Source: Flagellimonas okinawensis
Lineage (GTDB): Bacteria > Bacteroidota > Bacteroidia > Flavobacteriales > Flavobacteriaceae
NCBI RefSeq assembly: GCF_029194005.1
Contig: NZ_JARFVA010000007.1
Coordinates: 124,001-188,000, forward strand
Direction of reading: 5' to 3'
Length of the DNA stretch: 64,000 bases
Shown: positions 28,586 through 35,040 of the stretch, piece after piece
How the letters are laid out: every line of letters starts with the position of its first letter
Position numbering within the stretch: position 1 is the stretch's first letter
The notes under the pieces: generated by a model
Told to the model about the DNA's origin: nothing
What the model saw: the letters and a program-made list of their open reading frames with translations, nothing else
Databases searched by the model: none
Translations under genes and position numbers: made by a program

Positions 28586-30202
28586 TCATCCAACCATTTC
28601 TGGCTGTATGTTCCATTTATCGTTGGCCAAGAGTACTTGGTCAAAATCGATACCCTCGATGGGTTTTAAAGTTTTACTGGCTGCATCCCATTCTATTTTT
28701 CTACCCAGTTTCCAAGATAGACCGGCCATGTGAGCAGAAATAGCTTCCTCGAACCCTTCTTTGATACCACAACTTACTTTTCCACCGTTTTTGATAACAC
28801 TCAACCATTCCCGCATGTGCAAGAAGGTGGAATCTACCCGGACCCCATCAATATAGGTCCACATTAAACCTTTGTCGGCAAAATATTGCGATGTGGCCGA
28901 AGAAACTGCATCCGTTGCATTGGCAGCAGGATCATAATGGTAAATAGGTACATTGGGATTCATTTTTTCCGCTTCCAACATATCCGCATATCGGGTAGAA
29001 GCTCCATCTGGCCAAACGGTTAATCTATTTCCGAGTTCCATGGTGGCATCATGCCCCATGAGGATGGTCGGCCTACTGAACCCGTTCCCCAATGTGGCAC
29101 TGTAGCAAAAGGTCATACCATTTTCTTTGCCCTTAACTTGACTGCTTCCGGTACTGAAATCAGGAAACTCCATGTTCACTTGAATCACATCGGGCACATT
29201 TCGTCCATCGTTATGTGTGTAAATTCCACCTGAAGACATTACAGATGCTGGAATCCCCATATTTAATACGCAGTTCAAGCGATCATAATCATGCGACAAT
29301 AAATCCCCTGAAAGGCCGGAACCATAGGACCACCATTTACGCCATCTAAAAAAATGGTTCTTGTTGAATGGCACCTTTGGTGCAGAGCCCAAGAATTGGT
29401 CCCAATCAATGGTCTCCGGACTGGCTTTCTCATGGATATCATAGTTCCAAGCGCCGTTATCATCGTTCCTATTGGTATTGGTCTGGATCAATGAGACATG
29501 GCCCAGTGTTCCTTTGTCCACAATATCCCGGGCAGTACTGAAACTCAGTGTTTGCCTATGCTGGTGACCCACAGCGAATACTGCTTCGGATTTTTCGGCA
29601 GCGTCACGCAACGTATAGGTTTCCGCAACAGTGTGTGTCATGGGTTTTTCCACATACACGTGCACATTGTTGTTCAAGGCTTCAATGGACATAGGTGCAT
29701 GCCAGTGGTCGGGTGTGGCAATCACGACCGCATCCACTTCCCCACTTTGGATCATATCCTTGTAGGTAAGATATCTTTTGATCTTGTTGTCATCGGTGGA
29801 GAATGAATTGATGAACTTTTCGGCACGGACATCGAAAACGTCACAGATACCTACCAATTTCACATTGAGGCGTTCTTGTTTTTCAAAATCCTCCAACCTT
29901 TTATTGTTTGGATCCTCCTCTGCGGCCAAGCGCATCTCTTCCTTCCACTCATCGGTGGCAAAACCAAGAGCACGGGTCAACTGTTCTCCGCGGATACCAA
30001 AACCAATCACCCCGATCCTTACAGGGTCTCCTCCAATTCCGGGAACCGCAGGTGGCAAGGACGGTTTTATATTAAGTTGCTCCAAGATTTCGGAGCGTTT
30101 TTTCCGTGAGCCAACGGATGTCGCCGCACCGGCCCACCATACAGCTCCAAGTATAGGCAAGCCGCCCAATCCTATTAATAGGTCTCTTCTAGTCCATTTC
30201 AT
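28586..30202 (-). CDS. Gfo/Idh/MocA-family oxidoreductase, Tat-exported
   Basis: 538 aa. A twin-arginine signal leads (WTRRDLLIGLGGLPILG). The NAD(P)-binding Rossmann domain begins around residue 62 (IGVIGFGIRG), and the family motif EKPM is present (about residue 188). Exported Gfo/Idh/MocA proteins of this length are frequent in Bacteroidota and are thought to oxidise sugars or sugar derivatives with a tightly bound cofactor. The DoxX gene upstream overlaps its start by 4 bp, so the two form an operon. Substrate unknown. Confidence 0.9.
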   Translation of the reverse strand: MKWTRRDLLIGLGGLPILGAVWWAGAATSVGSRKKRSEILEQLNIKPSLPPAVPGIGGDPVRIGVIGFGIRGEQLTRALGFATDEWKEEMRLAAEEDPNNKRLEDFEKQERLNVKLVGICDVFDVRAEKFINSFSTDDNKIKRYLTYKDMIQSGEVDAVVIATPDHWHAPMSIEALNNNVHVYVEKPMTHTVAETYTLRDAAEKSEAVFAVGHQHRQTLSFSTARDIVDKGTLGHVSLIQTNTNRNDDNGAWNYDIHEKASPETIDWDQFLGSAPKVPFNKNHFFRWRKWWSYGSGLSGDLLSHDYDRLNCVLNMGIPASVMSSGGIYTHNDGRNVPDVIQVNMEFPDFSTGSSQVKGKENGMTFCYSATLGNGFSRPTILMGHDATMELGNRLTVWPDGASTRYADMLEAEKMNPNVPIYHYDPAANATDAVSSATSQYFADKGLMWTYIDGVRVDSTFLHMREWLSVIKNGGKVSCGIKEGFEEAISAHMAGLSWKLGRKIEWDAASKTLKPIEGIDFDQVLLANDKWNIQPEMVG

Positions 30203-30678
30203 TGTTCTTGAGTTTTAAGTTTGTTCTTTCTAAGATAGTCCAGGCCAAAATAAGATCCGGTAGGCATTTGATAGATAACGATACAGGCCACAAGCTCTAT
30301 CAAATTTTTATTGATGAGCCAATAGTTTCCTTCCACGTTCATTTGGGTAAGTCCCGGAAACGGCGGGTGTGCCAAAAAATAAAGGGCTAAAAGACCGACC
30401 CCCACAATGGCTCCGATTCGCTCGAAAATTCCAAGGGCAAAGGTCACACCGACTACCATTAGGGCAATAATGTTCAGGGTATCCACCCATCCGATTGTGG
30501 CATCACCGATCAACATGGTGAAAAACCACTCAAAAGGTCCTTGGGCAGTGGCCAGATATCCGAAAGAAGTCCATTCGGGATTGTACATCTTCACCACACC
30601 CTCAAATAAAAAATGCCACCCTATAAAAATTCGAAGCAGGGTAACACTTGCTTTTAATTTATTTTGATTTTGGTTCAT
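30199..30678 (-). CDS. DoxX-family membrane protein
   Basis: 159 aa with four hydrophobic segments (about residues 10-28, 60-80, 83-103 and 125-145). The opening VTLLRIFIGWHFLFEGVVKMYNP is typical of DoxX. It is coupled by a 4-bp overlap to the Tat-exported oxidoreductase, suggesting it serves it, perhaps in electron transfer to the quinone pool (inference). Confidence 0.85.
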   Translation of the reverse strand: MNQNQNKLKASVTLLRIFIGWHFLFEGVVKMYNPEWTSFGYLATAQGPFEWFFTMLIGDATIGWVDTLNIIALMVVGVTFALGIFERIGAIVGVGLLALYFLAHPPFPGLTQMNVEGNYWLINKNLIELVACIVIYQMPTGSYFGLDYLRKNKLKTQEQ

Positions 30679-31032
30679 AGTTGTTATGGTTAATTGAATT
30701 TGTTCCTTGTTCTTGTAGGTTGTTAAAGAAGAATTGGTGCTAGTTTTTTATTTGAAGTACTAAAATTACCTAAGGGCAACTCGAAATACCATGACCAATA
30801 TCAGTTTTTAAATATGCTGTTAAGTGGTGATGCCCTTTACTTTGCACCTCCATAAACTGACATTTTTTAGGTTTTCCATAATTAGGGATTGACCAATATG
30901 AATACCGAATTTTAAAAATATCGCTATGATCACAGCCTCATTTTTTGAAATTGGTTTTTATTACAAAATACTTTTCCCGACTGCATTTTTTTGATGAAGT
31001 TAACCGTACCAACCCATACTTGAAGAAGGCAC
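30679..31032. other. Regulatory intergenic region between doxX and the four-domain gene
   Basis: 354 bp without a credible gene. It holds the second FNR-like box (30791-30805), the shared GATGCCCTTTAC block (30829-30840), and an imperfect further copy of the box (TTGACCAATATGAA near 30889-30902). It must contain the promoters of both divergent units. Confidence 0.55.
30791..30844 (+). promoter_or_regulatory. FNR/CRP-like box with promoter-like downstream block, copy 2
   Basis: ATGACCAATATCAGT at 30791-30805 is identical to the box at 1156-1170, and GATGCCCTTTAC (30829-30840) runs into TTACTTTG (30837-30844), which matches TAnnTTTG at seven of eight positions. The box is about 43 bp upstream of that element, near where an activator would sit. 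Confidence 0.45.
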
Positions 31033-33615
31033 GTGAACCAGATTGAATCGGATATCAACTATCTTAAAGAGCAGTTTCCCCAAGGAACAATTTCCACATA
31101 CGAAAAAGGTCATGTGATTTGCAACATTCACACCAAGGTCAATACCTTCAGGTGGTTGCTCCAAGGTACATTTGACTATTTTACCACCACCAATGATCCT
31201 GAAGAGGAAGTATTGGTATGTCAAATTTCGGAGCCAATGAGCACTTTGGGCCTCAACGGCCTTAATGACCGAAAAAGGTACACCTACAAAATTGCAGTGG
31301 CATCCGAACAAGCAAGTTTTTTCGAGGTTCCCATAGAGCAAATGGTAGCGCATCTCCAACAAGACCGGACGAACCAAACGATAACCAAAATCAGCTGCTC
31401 ACTTTATCATCAGCTCAGACAGGCATTATTAAAACAGACCGACCTTTTGCAAGCTGCACGCTACAGACCATTGGAAAAAGATCGTGAATTTTTTATGGGT
31501 CCCGATACGGAAAGGTCCGAGGTGGTCTCACTGATGCGTCGCTCTCCTTTTTTGGATTATTTCGATGACCAACAACTGTCGCAAATCGCATCCATAGCCG
31601 AGCGGAGGGAATATGAACCAGACGAAGTATTGTACATTCAGGACAGGCTCACCAATGGACTTTTTATACTCATACATGGTGAAGTGGCCATCAAGCGTCT
31701 GGAAGGAAACATTGAGATACGCCAACGGTCCATCAATAACCCGGGCTTTATTTTTGGTTGGTCCTGTGCCATGGGAGAAAAGGATATCTGTTCCGCGGTG
31801 ACCACCCAAAAAAGCTCCATCTATTTTATCCATCAAAAGGATTTACTTCAATTGTTGGATAAATGCTCCGTTTTCGCCCATAATTTCTTTATGCGGCTGC
31901 TGTGGTTGATGGGCAACCAGATCAATGCTGCCTTTGTCCGGTATCTGGGGCTATTGGGAAAGCACAATCTTCAGGCCGTGTATCAATTGATCGAGAACAA
32001 CAAATCGCGATTGGCCCTCTCCTCCCCTTTGCATCAGGTGGGGCATTTGCTATCCAATACCAACACCAAACAATTGGGCTACGATGCCCTGTCCAAACTT
32101 ATCAGCAAAGGATCTCACTTGGAACGGCATATCGCTTCGTTGAGCTTGGAGCTTTTGCAGGAAGACATGCAGGAACTCAAGTTCATCAAAGGGCTTCAAC
32201 AGATCTATGAGACCGTTGCGGAGAAGAAGAATGAACCAGGTATCGATATCAGAAAATCATGTGCCAAGGCCACCAAAGATGCTTTTGAACATGTCCAGCA
32301 CCATATTGAAGGTTTGGAAAACCTTCCGGAGAAAAGTGGCTGTATCTTCATTTACAACCATCTTTTCAATCATGCTTTCTACACGCTCAACAACAAGTTC
32401 CAAATTACTTTGGATTCGCATTTTATAAGCGCAAAGATTTTGGACGACCACTACAACGACCCTGGAATTAGAACCGTGAGAATAGGTCGTGGTCAGGAAT
32501 ATGGCCATCAAAATTATTACAACAAACTGGGCTATATCAATGTATACACCAAGGAATCGGATACGGTGAACAAGCAAAGTAAAAAAGAGACCAGAAGCAT
32601 TTTTTACCGCACTGCCTCGGAACATCTGTACGGGGGACATAATTTGGTCATCAGTCCCGAGGGAACCTCATATTCAACTGAGGAGTCCCCTGGTCCTTTC
32701 AAGATGGGCGTCTTTAAGCTGGCGATGTCCATGGACCCCGAACCTTATATTGTCCCTATTGTACTGGCAAATTTTGACAAGCGAATTTCCGATGGCCTTT
32801 TTTACTGTAAGATCCATCAACCTTTTAAACTAAGCGAAAAATTATCGGAATCCGATGGTGGCCTATATGATTTTGTAAAGGGATATCAGCACACCTATTC
32901 AGGATATGTGGAAGAGGCAAGAAAACGTGCCGAAGAATTGTACATGAAGCCGGCTCCTACCGTAATGGAAGAGCCCCCGGAAATATGGCGCAACGAAATA
33001 AAACGACTTAAAAGACGTGTCCGTGGCCTGGACAACCATAACGACCTGATCATTTTTTACGGAAGTTCATCGGTACGCCTATGGGTAGGGATGAAGAAAG
33101 ACCTATATCCTTTCAATGTGCTCAATCTGGGATTTGGAGGTTCTACCTATGCCTGGTGCATTCATTATTTTGATGAAATCTTTAATGGGGCCCATCCCAG
33201 TAAAATTGTACTGTATGCGGGAGAGAATGACCTTGCACAGGGAAAATCGCCCCAAGAGGTCCTGAACGACTGCAATAAACTTGTTCAAATGATCCTTAAA
33301 AAATATCCCGAGGTGGAACTGGCATTTGTAAGCTTAAAACCTAGCTTGGAACGTGAAGAAATGATTCCGCTGATCATCGAAACCAATCTATTGCTGTCCA
33401 AGTATGTGATAGGGGAACTAAATTCGCAATACATCAATGTATTTGGACAAATGATCACTGCGGATAATCGTCCAAAACCAGAACTTTATATGTCCGATGG
33501 CCTACACCTCAACAAAAAGGGATATGCCATTTGGAGCGATGTCATCAAGACCGCTTTGTTATCAGTAGAGAATCCTATGGAAAAAGAATCATTGGATCTG
33601 ACTTCCGATGTCTAA
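31033..33615 (+). CDS. Four-domain protein: two cNMP-binding-like domains, acyltransferase, SGNH hydrolase
   Basis: 860 aa, no signal peptide or clear membrane helix. Residues about 20-115 and 170-290 resemble cyclic-nucleotide-binding domains of the CRP type; the second is clearer (YIQDRLTNGLFILIHGEVAI). Residues about 415-600 are a PlsC-like glycerolipid acyltransferase: N442-H443 and PEGTS (542-546) are present, but the H-x4-D aspartate is A448. Residues about 670-845 are an SGNH/GDSL hydrolase with GSS (S679), G700/G702, N732 in GEND, and D822/H825 in SDGLH. A GTG start is chosen because an in-frame stop (31021) lies just upstream; GAAGAAGG precedes it. It could be a cNMP- or signal-controlled lipid remodelling enzyme that both transfers and removes acyl groups. 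I know of no characterised protein with this order. Confidence 0.85.
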   Translation: MNQIESDINYLKEQFPQGTISTYEKGHVICNIHTKVNTFRWLLQGTFDYFTTTNDPEEEVLVCQISEPMSTLGLNGLNDRKRYTYKIAVASEQASFFEVPIEQMVAHLQQDRTNQTITKISCSLYHQLRQALLKQTDLLQAARYRPLEKDREFFMGPDTERSEVVSLMRRSPFLDYFDDQQLSQIASIAERREYEPDEVLYIQDRLTNGLFILIHGEVAIKRLEGNIEIRQRSINNPGFIFGWSCAMGEKDICSAVTTQKSSIYFIHQKDLLQLLDKCSVFAHNFFMRLLWLMGNQINAAFVRYLGLLGKHNLQAVYQLIENNKSRLALSSPLHQVGHLLSNTNTKQLGYDALSKLISKGSHLERHIASLSLELLQEDMQELKFIKGLQQIYETVAEKKNEPGIDIRKSCAKATKDAFEHVQHHIEGLENLPEKSGCIFIYNHLFNHAFYTLNNKFQITLDSHFISAKILDDHYNDPGIRTVRIGRGQEYGHQNYYNKLGYINVYTKESDTVNKQSKKETRSIFYRTASEHLYGGHNLVISPEGTSYSTEESPGPFKMGVFKLAMSMDPEPYIVPIVLANFDKRISDGLFYCKIHQPFKLSEKLSESDGGLYDFVKGYQHTYSGYVEEARKRAEELYMKPAPTVMEEPPEIWRNEIKRLKRRVRGLDNHNDLIIFYGSSSVRLWVGMKKDLYPFNVLNLGFGGSTYAWCIHYFDEIFNGAHPSKIVLYAGENDLAQGKSPQEVLNDCNKLVQMILKKYPEVELAFVSLKPSLEREEMIPLIIETNLLLSKYVIGELNSQYINVFGQMITADNRPKPELYMSDGLHLNKKGYAIWSDVIKTALLSVENPMEKESLDLTSDV

Positions 33616-34913
33616 GCGGGCTCACCGAACAAATCGTAATCGGACGCATCAGTGATCTTAATGTTCACAAAGTCTCCGATCTTTACATAATGTTTTGTGG
33701 CATCAATCAGTACTTCATTATCCACATCGGGTGAATCGAACTCGGTTCGACCAACAAAATGGTTTCCTTCCTTTCTATCTATAATACAACGGAACGTATG
33801 TCCGATCTTTTCTTGATTGAGTTCCCAAGAAATCTGAGATTGGATCTCCATAATGATGTTCGCTCGCTCTTGCTTCACTTCTTCGGGAACATCATCCTCT
33901 AAGTTGTAGGCATGGGTGTTCTCTTCGTGACTATAGGTAAAACAGCCCAATCGTTCAAAACGAATCTCTTTGACCCACTGTTTCAATGTCTCAAAATCTT
34001 CTTCCGTTTCTCCGGGGTATCCCACGATCAAAGTGGTTCTAATGGCCATTTCTGGCACAGCCTCCCTAAAGTCTTTCAATAACTTCGTGGTTTTGGCCTG
34101 TGTCGTCCCGCGTCGCATACTTTTAAGTATGGAATCGGATATATGCTGAAGTGGTATGTCGATATAATTACAGATCTTCGGCTCGTTGCGCATCACCTCC
34201 AAAACATCCATGGGGAATCCTGTTGGGAAGGCATAGTGCAAACGGATCCATTCAATACCATCAACCTTGGACAGGGCTCGCAACAATACAGCCAAGTTTC
34301 TTTTTTTGTACAGATCAAGACCATAATAGGTAAGATCCTGTGCAATCAAAATGAGCTCCTTGACTCCGTTGGCCGCCAATTTTTCAGCTTCGGCAACCAA
34401 ATCTTCAATCGGAGTGCTCTTATGCTTTCCTCGCATTAAGGGGATGGCACAGAAAGAACAAGGACGATCACATCCTTCTGCAATTTTAAGGTACGCATAG
34501 TTTTTTGGCGTGGTCGTTAAACGCTCACCGATCAGCTCGTGCTTATAATCGGCACCTAGGGCCTTCAACAAATTGGGAAGATCGCTGGTCCCGAAATATT
34601 CGTCCACATTGGGTATTTCCTTTTCCAAATCGGGCTTATAGCGTTCGCTCAAACAACCTGTCACAAACACCTTGTCCACATCGCCAGCTTCCTTTCGCTG
34701 TACATAGTCCAAAATGGTGTTGACGCTTTCTTCCTTTGCATTGGCAATAAACCCACAGGTGTTGATCACAACCACATTGCCTTCCTCTTCGTGAACCACC
34801 TCTTTGTTATTGGCACGCAGCTGTCCCATCAACACTTCCGAATCGTAGACGTTCTTGCTGCAACCCAAGGTCACCACATTAATTTTGTTCTTTTTAAGCG
34901 ATTTTGTGCGCAT
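33612..34913 (-). CDS. rimO: Ribosomal protein S12 methylthiotransferase
   Basis: 433 aa with the ATG at 34913 (MRTKSLKKN); a longer frame would add 12 residues with no family support. The N-terminal MTTase domain has TLGCSKN, the radical-SAM cluster motif is CDRPCSFC, and a C-terminal TRAM domain is present. It methylthiolates Asp88 (E. coli numbering) of ribosomal protein S12. Its stop overlaps that of the convergent four-domain gene by 3-4 bp. Confidence 0.95.
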   Translation of the reverse strand: MRTKSLKKNKINVVTLGCSKNVYDSEVLMGQLRANNKEVVHEEEGNVVVINTCGFIANAKEESVNTILDYVQRKEAGDVDKVFVTGCLSERYKPDLEKEIPNVDEYFGTSDLPNLLKALGADYKHELIGERLTTTPKNYAYLKIAEGCDRPCSFCAIPLMRGKHKSTPIEDLVAEAEKLAANGVKELILIAQDLTYYGLDLYKKRNLAVLLRALSKVDGIEWIRLHYAFPTGFPMDVLEVMRNEPKICNYIDIPLQHISDSILKSMRRGTTQAKTTKLLKDFREAVPEMAIRTTLIVGYPGETEEDFETLKQWVKEIRFERLGCFTYSHEENTHAYNLEDDVPEEVKQERANIIMEIQSQISWELNQEKIGHTFRCIIDRKEGNHFVGRTEFDSPDVDNEVLIDATKHYVKIGDFVNIKITDASDYDLFGEPA

Positions 34914-34932
34914 AGTTCCTTTAAATGGAGTG

Positions 34933-34940
34933 CAAAAATA
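34933..34940 (-). promoter_or_regulatory. -7 promoter element of rimO
   Basis: On the minus strand this reads TATTTTTG, an exact TAnnTTTG match, 19 bp before the chosen start. No good -33 element is seen. Confidence 0.5.
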
Positions 34941-35040
34941 CAATAACACAGGGCATTACATCGAATTGCTTGCATATTTTTAGTGTTTCAGCGTTAAACT
35001 ATTGACCCTCATTGTAGTCAAAGGTCTAAACTCCAATAGC

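Follow-up and report, generated by a model that had tools for sequence, protein, structure and literature searches.

A conserved flavobacterial protein combining tandem cyclic nucleotide-binding-like domains with a PlsC-fold acyltransferase and an SGNH esterase: a possible coupled acyl-transfer enzyme

Introduction

The 64,000-nucleotide stretch of Flagellimonas okinawensis DNA analysed here (contig NZ_JARFVA010000007.1, positions 124,001 to 188,000; hereafter the window) encodes a protein of 860 residues in which two domains of the cyclic nucleotide-binding (CNB) type and a helical segment precede a PlsC-fold acyltransferase (AT) and an SGNH esterase. The combination of these four domains in one polypeptide is real; it recurs in 17 relatives (long forms), and the AT-SGNH pair also occurs as a free protein (short form) in other Flavobacteriaceae. 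It is tentatively suggested, at somewhat less than even confidence, that the protein is a coupled acyl-transfer enzyme for a non-phosphorylated acceptor, perhaps a sugar, with a regulatory or docking N-terminus. This proposal is favoured over that of a first-pass annotation of the window, in which a cyclic nucleotide-gated switch would both add acyl groups to lipids and remove them.

Domain architecture

The gene and its parts are as follows (window coordinates).

31033..33615, +, whole gene: 860 residues, CNB1, CNB2, helical segment, PlsC-fold acyltransferase, SGNH esterase
31087..31362, +, CNB-like domain 1: residues ~19-110, followed by a helix at 115-138; from a sub-threshold Pfam match (PF00027), AlphaFold and tandem-CNB alignments
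31519..31866, +, CNB domain 2: residues ~163-278, with a degenerate phosphate-binding cassette (G242-W243; D-I-C at 251-253)
31867..32232, +, helical segment: residues ~279-400, the long C-helix of CNB2 and then several shorter helices
32239..32952, +, PlsC/LPLAT-fold acyltransferase domain: residues ~403-640; from PF01553, the 5kym fold match and a profile-profile match
32356..32376, +, AT motif I, N442-H443-L-x-N446-[H/D]447-x448: catalytic His present, Asp five residues after it absent (24 sequences)
32413..32415, +, D461: invariant, at the helix start after the motif-I strand; candidate stand-in for that Asp
32653..32670, +, AT motif III, S-P-E543-G544-T-S546: EGTS in place of the usual EGTR; E, G and S in 24/24
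32980..33567, +, SGNH hydrolase domain: residues ~650-845; from Pfam and fold matches
33067..33069, +, S679, nucleophile of SGNH block I: GSSS in place of GDS; 24/24
33496..33507, +, D822-x-x-H825, SGNH block V: 24/24

The single open reading frame (ORF) and its four recognisable domains, which the first-pass annotation had delimited about correctly, were confirmed using Pfam and AlphaFold. In the Pfam scan of the window protein, cNMP_binding scored 54.2 bits against a cut-off of 27.5 (two stretches at E≤1, the best at residues 191-277), Acyltransferase (PF01553) 34.2 against 23 bits at residues 424-578, and Lipase_GDSL_2 41.5 against 32.9 bits at residues 691-833. The AlphaFold model of the whole protein had a mean pLDDT of 72.0 and a pTM of 0.46, the enzyme half being predicted better than the N-terminal half. 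No DNA-binding family was matched in the same Pfam scan, in keeping with the earlier annotation, and a transcription factor was ruled out on this ground; the GNAT, patatin and AT3 (PF01757) families gave no match at E≤1. The window protein has no clear transmembrane segment, the highest 19-residue Kyte-Doolittle mean being 1.16, which was counted in favour of the reading proposed here. In the lists of fold matches used below, a missing family was not counted as evidence.

The frame is intact and starts with a GTG codon, and a homologous in-frame GTG was found in the five genus loci lying on the plus strand (L003-L007), the sixth (L002), on the minus strand, being left out of this comparison. 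Directly 5' of the GTG lies a stretch (30985-31032) that is near-identical in L003, L004 and the window, with L005 resembling them; possibly it is a promoter, a leader or a regulator site. A misassembly or frame fusion of two genes, named beforehand as an outcome that would overturn the annotation, was ruled out by the full-length relatives in independent genomes. The arrangement was also put forward as previously undescribed, and no description of it, or of the trehalose link presented below, was recognised by title or start of abstract among the papers listed in a mostly non-subscription literature, which is weak evidence of absence.

The acyltransferase domain

The predicted model of the AT domain aligned with TmPlsC (5kym) with a Z-score of 18.4 and a root-mean-square deviation (rmsd) of 4.0 across 222 residues, over residues 372-639. 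Profile-profile comparison with five PlsC-type sequences gave a probability of 99.0% and an E-value, calculated for one comparison, of 2.6e-17, with NH placed on NH and gaps after NH; the PlsC profile was built from three proteins of the own genome together with fragments of two from elsewhere in the genus, and left out the own-genome PF01553 matches L205 and L206. Among other members of the family, PF01553 scored 35.1 bits in a long form (L064) and 21.8 bits, under the cut-off of 23, in a short form (L069).

Twenty-four sequences (17 long and 7 short forms) were aligned for motif analysis. N442, H443, N446, D461, H463, R483, E489, H492, E543, G544, S546 and P575 were found in all 24. Asp was found in none at residue 448, five positions after the motif-I His, where P (12), S (6), A (3), T (1), E (1) and Q (1) occur, and residue 447 is His in 19 sequences and Asp in five. 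The Arg position of motif III is occupied by Ser in 24/24. According to a review of lysophosphatidic acid acyltransferases (LPAATs), the motif-I Asp is present in 59 of 60 LPAATs, the EGTR Arg is conserved and positioned to bind the phosphate of lysophosphatidic acid in TmPlsC, and loss of activity is cited for mutation of either residue (PMC6688108; here and below, cited papers are represented by the parts of their text that were available). In SalA, an enzyme which acylates an aminolipid, the motif is HX5D and the EGTR Arg is lost, being replaced by Val (PMC8319176). With both the Asp and the Arg missing throughout the family, the addition of acyl groups to (lyso)phospholipids, as first annotated, was not upheld, and a simple phospholipid switch is probably not what this protein represents, judging from its motifs.

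The domain shares with PlsC/LPLAT enzymes (5kym, SalA) the fold, the NH of motif I, the EG of motif III and the Pro of motif IV. It differs from them in lacking the Asp of motif I, in having EGTS, in its fusion to an SGNH domain and, in the long form, to CNB domains, and in an apparently longer stretch from the motif-I strand to the next helix. AlphaFold places the motif-I strand at residues 438-441 and the start of a long helix at 460, so that D461 may stand in for the Asp that motif I lacks.

The SGNH domain

The catalytic set of S679, G700, N732, D822 and H825, reported as intact in the window protein, is complete in 24/24 aligned relatives, as checked against a review of the family (PMC9487903). 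The predicted model aligned with a sialic acid esterase (7pzg) at Z 25.8, with 6njc at Z 24.9 and with PAF-AH (1wab) at Z 23.8, the nearest fold being that of a sugar O-acetylesterase. The fold and the full S, G, N and D-x-x-H set are shared with SGNH/GDSL hydrolases, including the Phocaeicola sialic acid esterase 7pzg, PAF-AH Ib (1wab) and a free paralogue in the own genome, from which the domain differs in a block I of GSSS or GSST instead of GDS and in its fusion behind an acyltransferase. The paralogue (G000:C1:885948-886541, in L063) is a protein of 214 residues, ~30% identical to the SGNH domain; SGNH-only matches as strong as that of this paralogue (E≤1e-24, residues ~640-850) were found, among the matches listed, in 34/36 genus genomes.

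The tandem CNB domains and the helical segment

The cyclic nucleotide-binding-like fold attributed to the N-terminal parts was borne out by Pfam, by two predicted beta-rolls and by Foldseek matches to PKA and PKG, CNB2 being clear and CNB1 recognised through a sub-threshold Pfam match, its predicted fold and tandem alignments. Residues 1-151 alone matched positions 3-88 of the 89-position cNMP_binding profile at E 1.8e-4 (21.8 bits, below the cut-off of 27.5), and the first domain of two other long forms matched it at E 0.0035 and 0.024. The AlphaFold model of residues 1-325 showed the two beta-rolls with a mean pLDDT of 77.6 and a pTM of 0.74. The best Foldseek matches of the same residues were tandem-CNB PKA/PKG proteins (E ~2e-12, ~290 columns), with a TM-score of 0.33 and an rmsd of 17 Å, values which indicate that the rolls fit those of PKA/PKG and their relative placement does not. 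Using VIA-align, CNB2 aligned with Clr (7pza) at Z 15.4 and rmsd 1.9 over 143 residues, and tandem alignments starting from residue 1 were obtained with 5j3u and 2qvs (rmsd 15.2 and 18.6 Å). Against PDB sequences, the N-terminal profile gave weak matches to CNB2 only, the best at E 0.023.

The residues by which such domains grip cyclic nucleotides are altered. In CNB2, G242-W243 occurs in 17/17 aligned long forms, as against G-E in 5/5 CRP-type relatives (alignment A5), and residues 251-253, where the Arg is expected, are D, I or S, and C in 17/17; a stray Arg lies near the cassette at 248 in L004, and at 258 and 260 in L066. CNB2 hence lacks the Glu and Arg of the cassette, and classical cyclic-nucleotide binding by this domain appears unlikely. 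In CNB1, the residue after G73, at a Glu place assigned by eye, is Leu in 15, Ile in one and Val in one of the 17 long forms; K81-R82 is invariant among them and may preserve a basic residue. Of the signal-controlled acyl enzyme envisaged by the first-pass annotation, the two acyl-type enzyme folds are upheld and the gating by cyclic nucleotides is not supported as stated. A class III cyclase homologue was found in 6/6 carrier genomes searched, including the own genome (57.4 bits), and cyclic nucleotides may therefore exist in the cell. The own-genome homologue, of the adenylate/guanylate cyclase type (G000:C8:69707-70216; L177, L208), has a hydrophobic N-terminal part.

Mycobacterial Pat is reportedly a CNB-GNAT acyltransferase. 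Like Pat and the CNB-patatin protein NTE/PNPLA6, the window protein carries CNB domains ahead of an acyl-related enzyme, and it differs from both in its enzyme families, in having two enzyme domains and in the degenerate cassette of CNB2. The tandem CNB fold is shared with the trypanosomatid PKA regulatory subunit (6flo and 6hyq being among the Foldseek matches), in which the cAMP-binding Arg is replaced as well and the altered cassette binds purine nucleosides (PMC10959531). In that protein the nucleosides are bound through cassette glutamates (PMC10959531), in place of which Trp (CNB2) and Leu, Ile or Val (CNB1) are found here. The CNB domains of NTE are described without shown nucleotide binding in the part of that source available (PMC6995513).

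The helical segment, which was missing from the domain list of the earlier annotation, is conserved and gave no Pfam match at residues 291-385. Stretches of it such as GLLGKHNLQAV or LERHIASLSLELL are invariant among the long forms, and it often evolves more slowly than any other part of the protein.

Relatives, distribution and selection

A search for proteins with the same domain order in Bacteroidota, suggested by the first-pass annotation, yielded the 17 further long forms, 61-90% identical to the window protein. A full-length relative was found in the own genome and in 6/35 other genus genomes (genus search, 59 genomes); five more were found in the family search of 299 genomes (G133, G210, G242, G293 and G343) and one more in the order search of 395 genomes (G691). 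A contig scan with a pair of peptide patterns drawn from the CNB2/helical region, which reaches close relatives only, returned 11 loci from Flagellimonas, Allomuricauda or Muricauda, six counted before and five new. In total, 18 distinct long forms were obtained including that of the window, 17 of which are in alignment A2.

The short forms comprise seven proteins of 451-467 residues, 36-39% identical to window residues ~380-845, from Flavobacteriaceae with small genomes (assemblies of 1.3-2.0 Mb, 78-91% complete). An eighth such genome (G078) carries a disrupted AT-SGNH remnant, two short ORFs with pieces of both domains (G078:C18, L076:8281-9060). A family search with the AT profile matched 13/329 genomes, corresponding to five long forms, seven short forms and the disrupted one, none of them new. 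At E≤1e-12 the AT profile matched the own genome only among 247 phylum genomes (best ≤10 candidates per genome), and at E≤1e-45 the listed matches of a mixed profile beyond Flavobacteriaceae began at residue 600 or later and covered essentially SGNH only (best ≤2 candidates per genome). The N-terminal profile matched 4/197 other phylum genomes, all with short CNB-type frames. Among the sampled Bacteroidota genomes, the AT subfamily was only found in Flavobacteriaceae. Two large AT-like ORFs, in G003 (29% identity over 418-588) and G024 (43% over 526-588), were rejected as relatives, being GPAT_C-HAD-Acyltransferase proteins of another architecture.

Long and short forms were separated with full support in a tree which is unrooted and carries a long-branch warning, so that the CNB part may have been either gained or lost. 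When the window gene was compared with 16 other long forms, CNB1 had the highest nonsynonymous divergence (dN) in 16/16 cases; the lowest value fell to the helical segment (291-385) in 10/16, to CNB2 in 3/16 and to the SGNH part in 3/16. The ratio omega ranged from 0.008 to 0.060 wherever it was defined, the synonymous divergence (dS) being saturated in many cells, and a pseudogene was thereby ruled out. In the AT part, dN was 0.08-0.34 with dS saturated and omega undefined in 16/16 comparisons, which nevertheless argues for strong constraint.

Short forms and their linkage to trehalose genes

In 4/7 short-form loci, the AT-SGNH gene lies directly behind a same-strand ORF of 733-743 residues, at spacings of -8, -4, +3 and -4 nt (L069, L071, L073 and L075, respectively). 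The upstream ORF of L069 was identified by Pfam as a fusion of GT20 (E 5.2e-154) and trehalose-phosphatase (E 3e-49), and those of L071, L073 and L075 are 62-74% identical to it. These pairs of an otsBA-type fusion and an AT-SGNH gene lie at:

L069:1446-5043
L071:3782-7395
L073:6923-10519
L075:8505-12091

A divergent ORF of 589-614 residues lies ahead of the pair in L071, L073 and L075, the contig of L069 holding only ~1.4 kb upstream; that of L073, the one scanned, is a GH15 protein with a trehalase-like N-terminal domain. The four linked AT-SGNH proteins are 46-53% identical to one another and their loci have few other neighbours in common, which makes it less likely that these regions as a whole stem from a recent common ancestor. 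Co-occurrence with OtsA was rejected as a signal, being uninformative. It is the linkage, and not the presence of the trehalose genes, that constitutes the evidence, since GT20 was present in 30/30 genomes (12 with a long form, eight with a short or disrupted form and 10 with neither). By linkage alone, trehalose is suggested as the acceptor. In a further short-form locus, the short form shares 4 nt at its 3' end with a same-strand ORF of 163 residues (L070:8481-8972); this ORF gave no Pfam match at E≤0.01, and a similar ORF is present in L071.

Proposed function

The seven free proteins on a separate, fully supported branch indicate that the AT-SGNH core can stand alone as a unit. Retention of this pair with or without the sensor part, together with the loss of the usual phosphate grip, makes coupled transfer to a non-phosphorylated acceptor the best guess. 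The complete SGNH set, with a nearest fold that is a sugar O-acetylesterase, and the trehalose linkage of four short forms were likewise counted in its favour. The model for it is provided by OafA and OafB, in which an acyltransferase and an SGNH domain share one transfer to sugars, the SGNH domain performing the last step (PMC7448272). The order of acyltransferase and then SGNH domain in one chain is as in these AT3-SGNH O-acetyltransferases, which include OatA (PMC7448272), and the differences are that the acyltransferase here has a PlsC fold instead of a multi-pass AT3 domain and that no clear transmembrane segment is present. On this analogy, the protein would be a soluble cytoplasmic enzyme, the two catalytic domains of which act together. 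The PlsC-fold domain would accept an acyl group from acyl-acyl carrier protein or acyl-coenzyme A, and the SGNH domain would complete, proof-read or redistribute the acyl ester on the same acceptor. This acceptor would be other than glycerol phosphate, the best guess being trehalose or another sugar, or else the head group of a glycolipid. In Flagellimonas and its relatives, the tandem CNB-plus-helical module may control or localise the core by way of some ligand or partner, though not classically bound cAMP; the trypanosome PKA offers a precedent for a CNB fold with another ligand (PMC10959531).

Several observations weigh against this proposal. Sequence support for the AT domain outside Pfam is thin: its profile finds 5kym at E 0.025 only, phmmer with the domain alone gave no match at E≤5 in PDB, and NCBIfam matches of the window protein were all far under the cut-off (e.g. 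AGP_acyltrn, 23.9 against 102.95 bits). The AT domain may be inactive, or a phosphate could still be gripped by the invariant R483, in the role that K105 has in TmPlsC. One short form (L074) has a core-strand stretch with a Kyte-Doolittle mean of 1.61. As regards trehalose, linkage to otsBA was absent in the short forms L070, L072 and L074 and none was seen in 14 long-form loci, the GT20 count above does not discriminate, and a literature search for trehalose glycolipids in Flavobacteriaceae listed a single paper, a taxonomic one.

Three other explanations were considered, each of them held to be doubtful. A ligand-gated Lands-cycle enzyme, as first annotated, in which the SGNH domain deacylates and the PlsC domain reacylates phospholipids under a switch of cyclic nucleotides or similar ligands, would agree with the occurrence of both folds in phospholipid enzymes (PAF-AH, PlsC), with the cyclase homologue of all six carrier genomes searched and with the existence of NTE, a known phospholipase with putative CNB domains (PMC6995513). 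It is made unlikely by the loss of the cassette Glu and Arg from CNB2 and, as placed by eye, of Glu from CNB1 in 17/17 long forms, and by the absence of the phosphate-binding Arg from 24/24 AT domains. Nothing indicates two opposed activities, and the pair is kept even where the sensor is missing; this retention and the trehalose-synthesis gene ahead of it in 4/7 loci are fitted at least as well by joint action on one acceptor.

It is likewise improbable, if compatible with several of the data, that the AT domain acylates an aminolipid, or some other membrane lipid of Bacteroidota that is not a glycerophospholipid, the SGNH domain serving as a remodelling or editing esterase and the trehalose linkage being incidental. 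SalA, with its non-HX4D motif and without the EGTR Arg, still makes aminolipids (PMC8319176), and the long forms lack the otsBA linkage; the position of four of the seven short forms directly behind otsBA speaks against this explanation. Aminolipid genes near the loci were not searched for systematically, Pfam outside the window covering four neighbouring ORFs only. The PlsC domain could instead be a pseudoenzyme binding a lipid or the SGNH partner, the SGNH esterase alone being active, which would account for the joint loss of the motif-I Asp and the motif-III Arg in 24/24, for the sub-threshold PF01553 match of the short form scanned and for the weak NCBIfam and PDB matches. This is rendered unlikely by the invariance of N442, H443, E543, G544 and P575, as well as D461, H463, R483, E489 and H492, and by the strong constraint deduced from the dN of the AT part. 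The coupled acyl-transfer enzyme is retained as the preferred reading. A bolder version of it, thought rather unlikely as it stands, is that the family forms a new class of synthases for sugar lipids in the cytoplasm, with a PlsC-fold/SGNH acyl relay by which trehalose or a related sugar is esterified; the enzyme would be free and otsBA-linked in flavobacteria with small genomes and, in Flagellimonas and its relatives, placed under a tandem CNB module in which cAMP has been exchanged for another ligand.

Genomic site

The gene is flanked in the window by two ORFs on the opposite strand:

30199..30678, -, DoxX family ORF, divergent upstream neighbour; from Pfam and synteny
33612..34949, -, RimO ORF, convergent neighbour; from NCBIfam TIGR01125, with a 4-bp tail-to-tail overlap; bounds the site at which the gene is present or absent

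In the window and eight other Flagellimonas-type loci (9/9), the gene lies ahead of the convergent RimO, and the DoxX ORF is on the other side in 8/9, not being picked out in L079. The site was also inspected in 12 of the 29 genus genomes without a long form. The gene was beside RimO in 0/12 of these, and 8/12 had DoxX on the corresponding side of RimO, where it was not found in L194, L197, L199 and L201. No gene remnant was detected by blastn at E≤0.01 in 10/12 non-carrier stretches, and L196 and L202 gave one 29-bp match each, lying outside the empty site. In a tree of RimO, carriers and non-carriers were interleaved in one group of 18 rows (12 carriers and six non-carriers), with six label changes observed, at least three of them forced by well-supported branches; shuffling gave an expectation of 8.3 changes and a count this low in 45 of 500 shuffles. 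Together, the shared site and the interleaving suggest, as a tendency only in a weakly resolved tree, one old presence followed by repeated loss. In two other-genus long-form loci, the gene is preceded by a same-strand ORF of cluster c37 (L065:6917-8653 and L068:7028-8770), that of L065 being an ABC transporter (ABC_membrane and ABC_tran).

Significance

The protein joins two acyl enzymes to domains of the signalling type in a single, conserved chain. Should the trehalose link hold, it would suggest that flavobacteria make sugar lipids, acylated trehalose or related compounds, and would supply genes for testing this. Should the CNB module have a new ligand, bacteria would offer a counterpart to the PKA of trypanosomes, which binds nucleosides.

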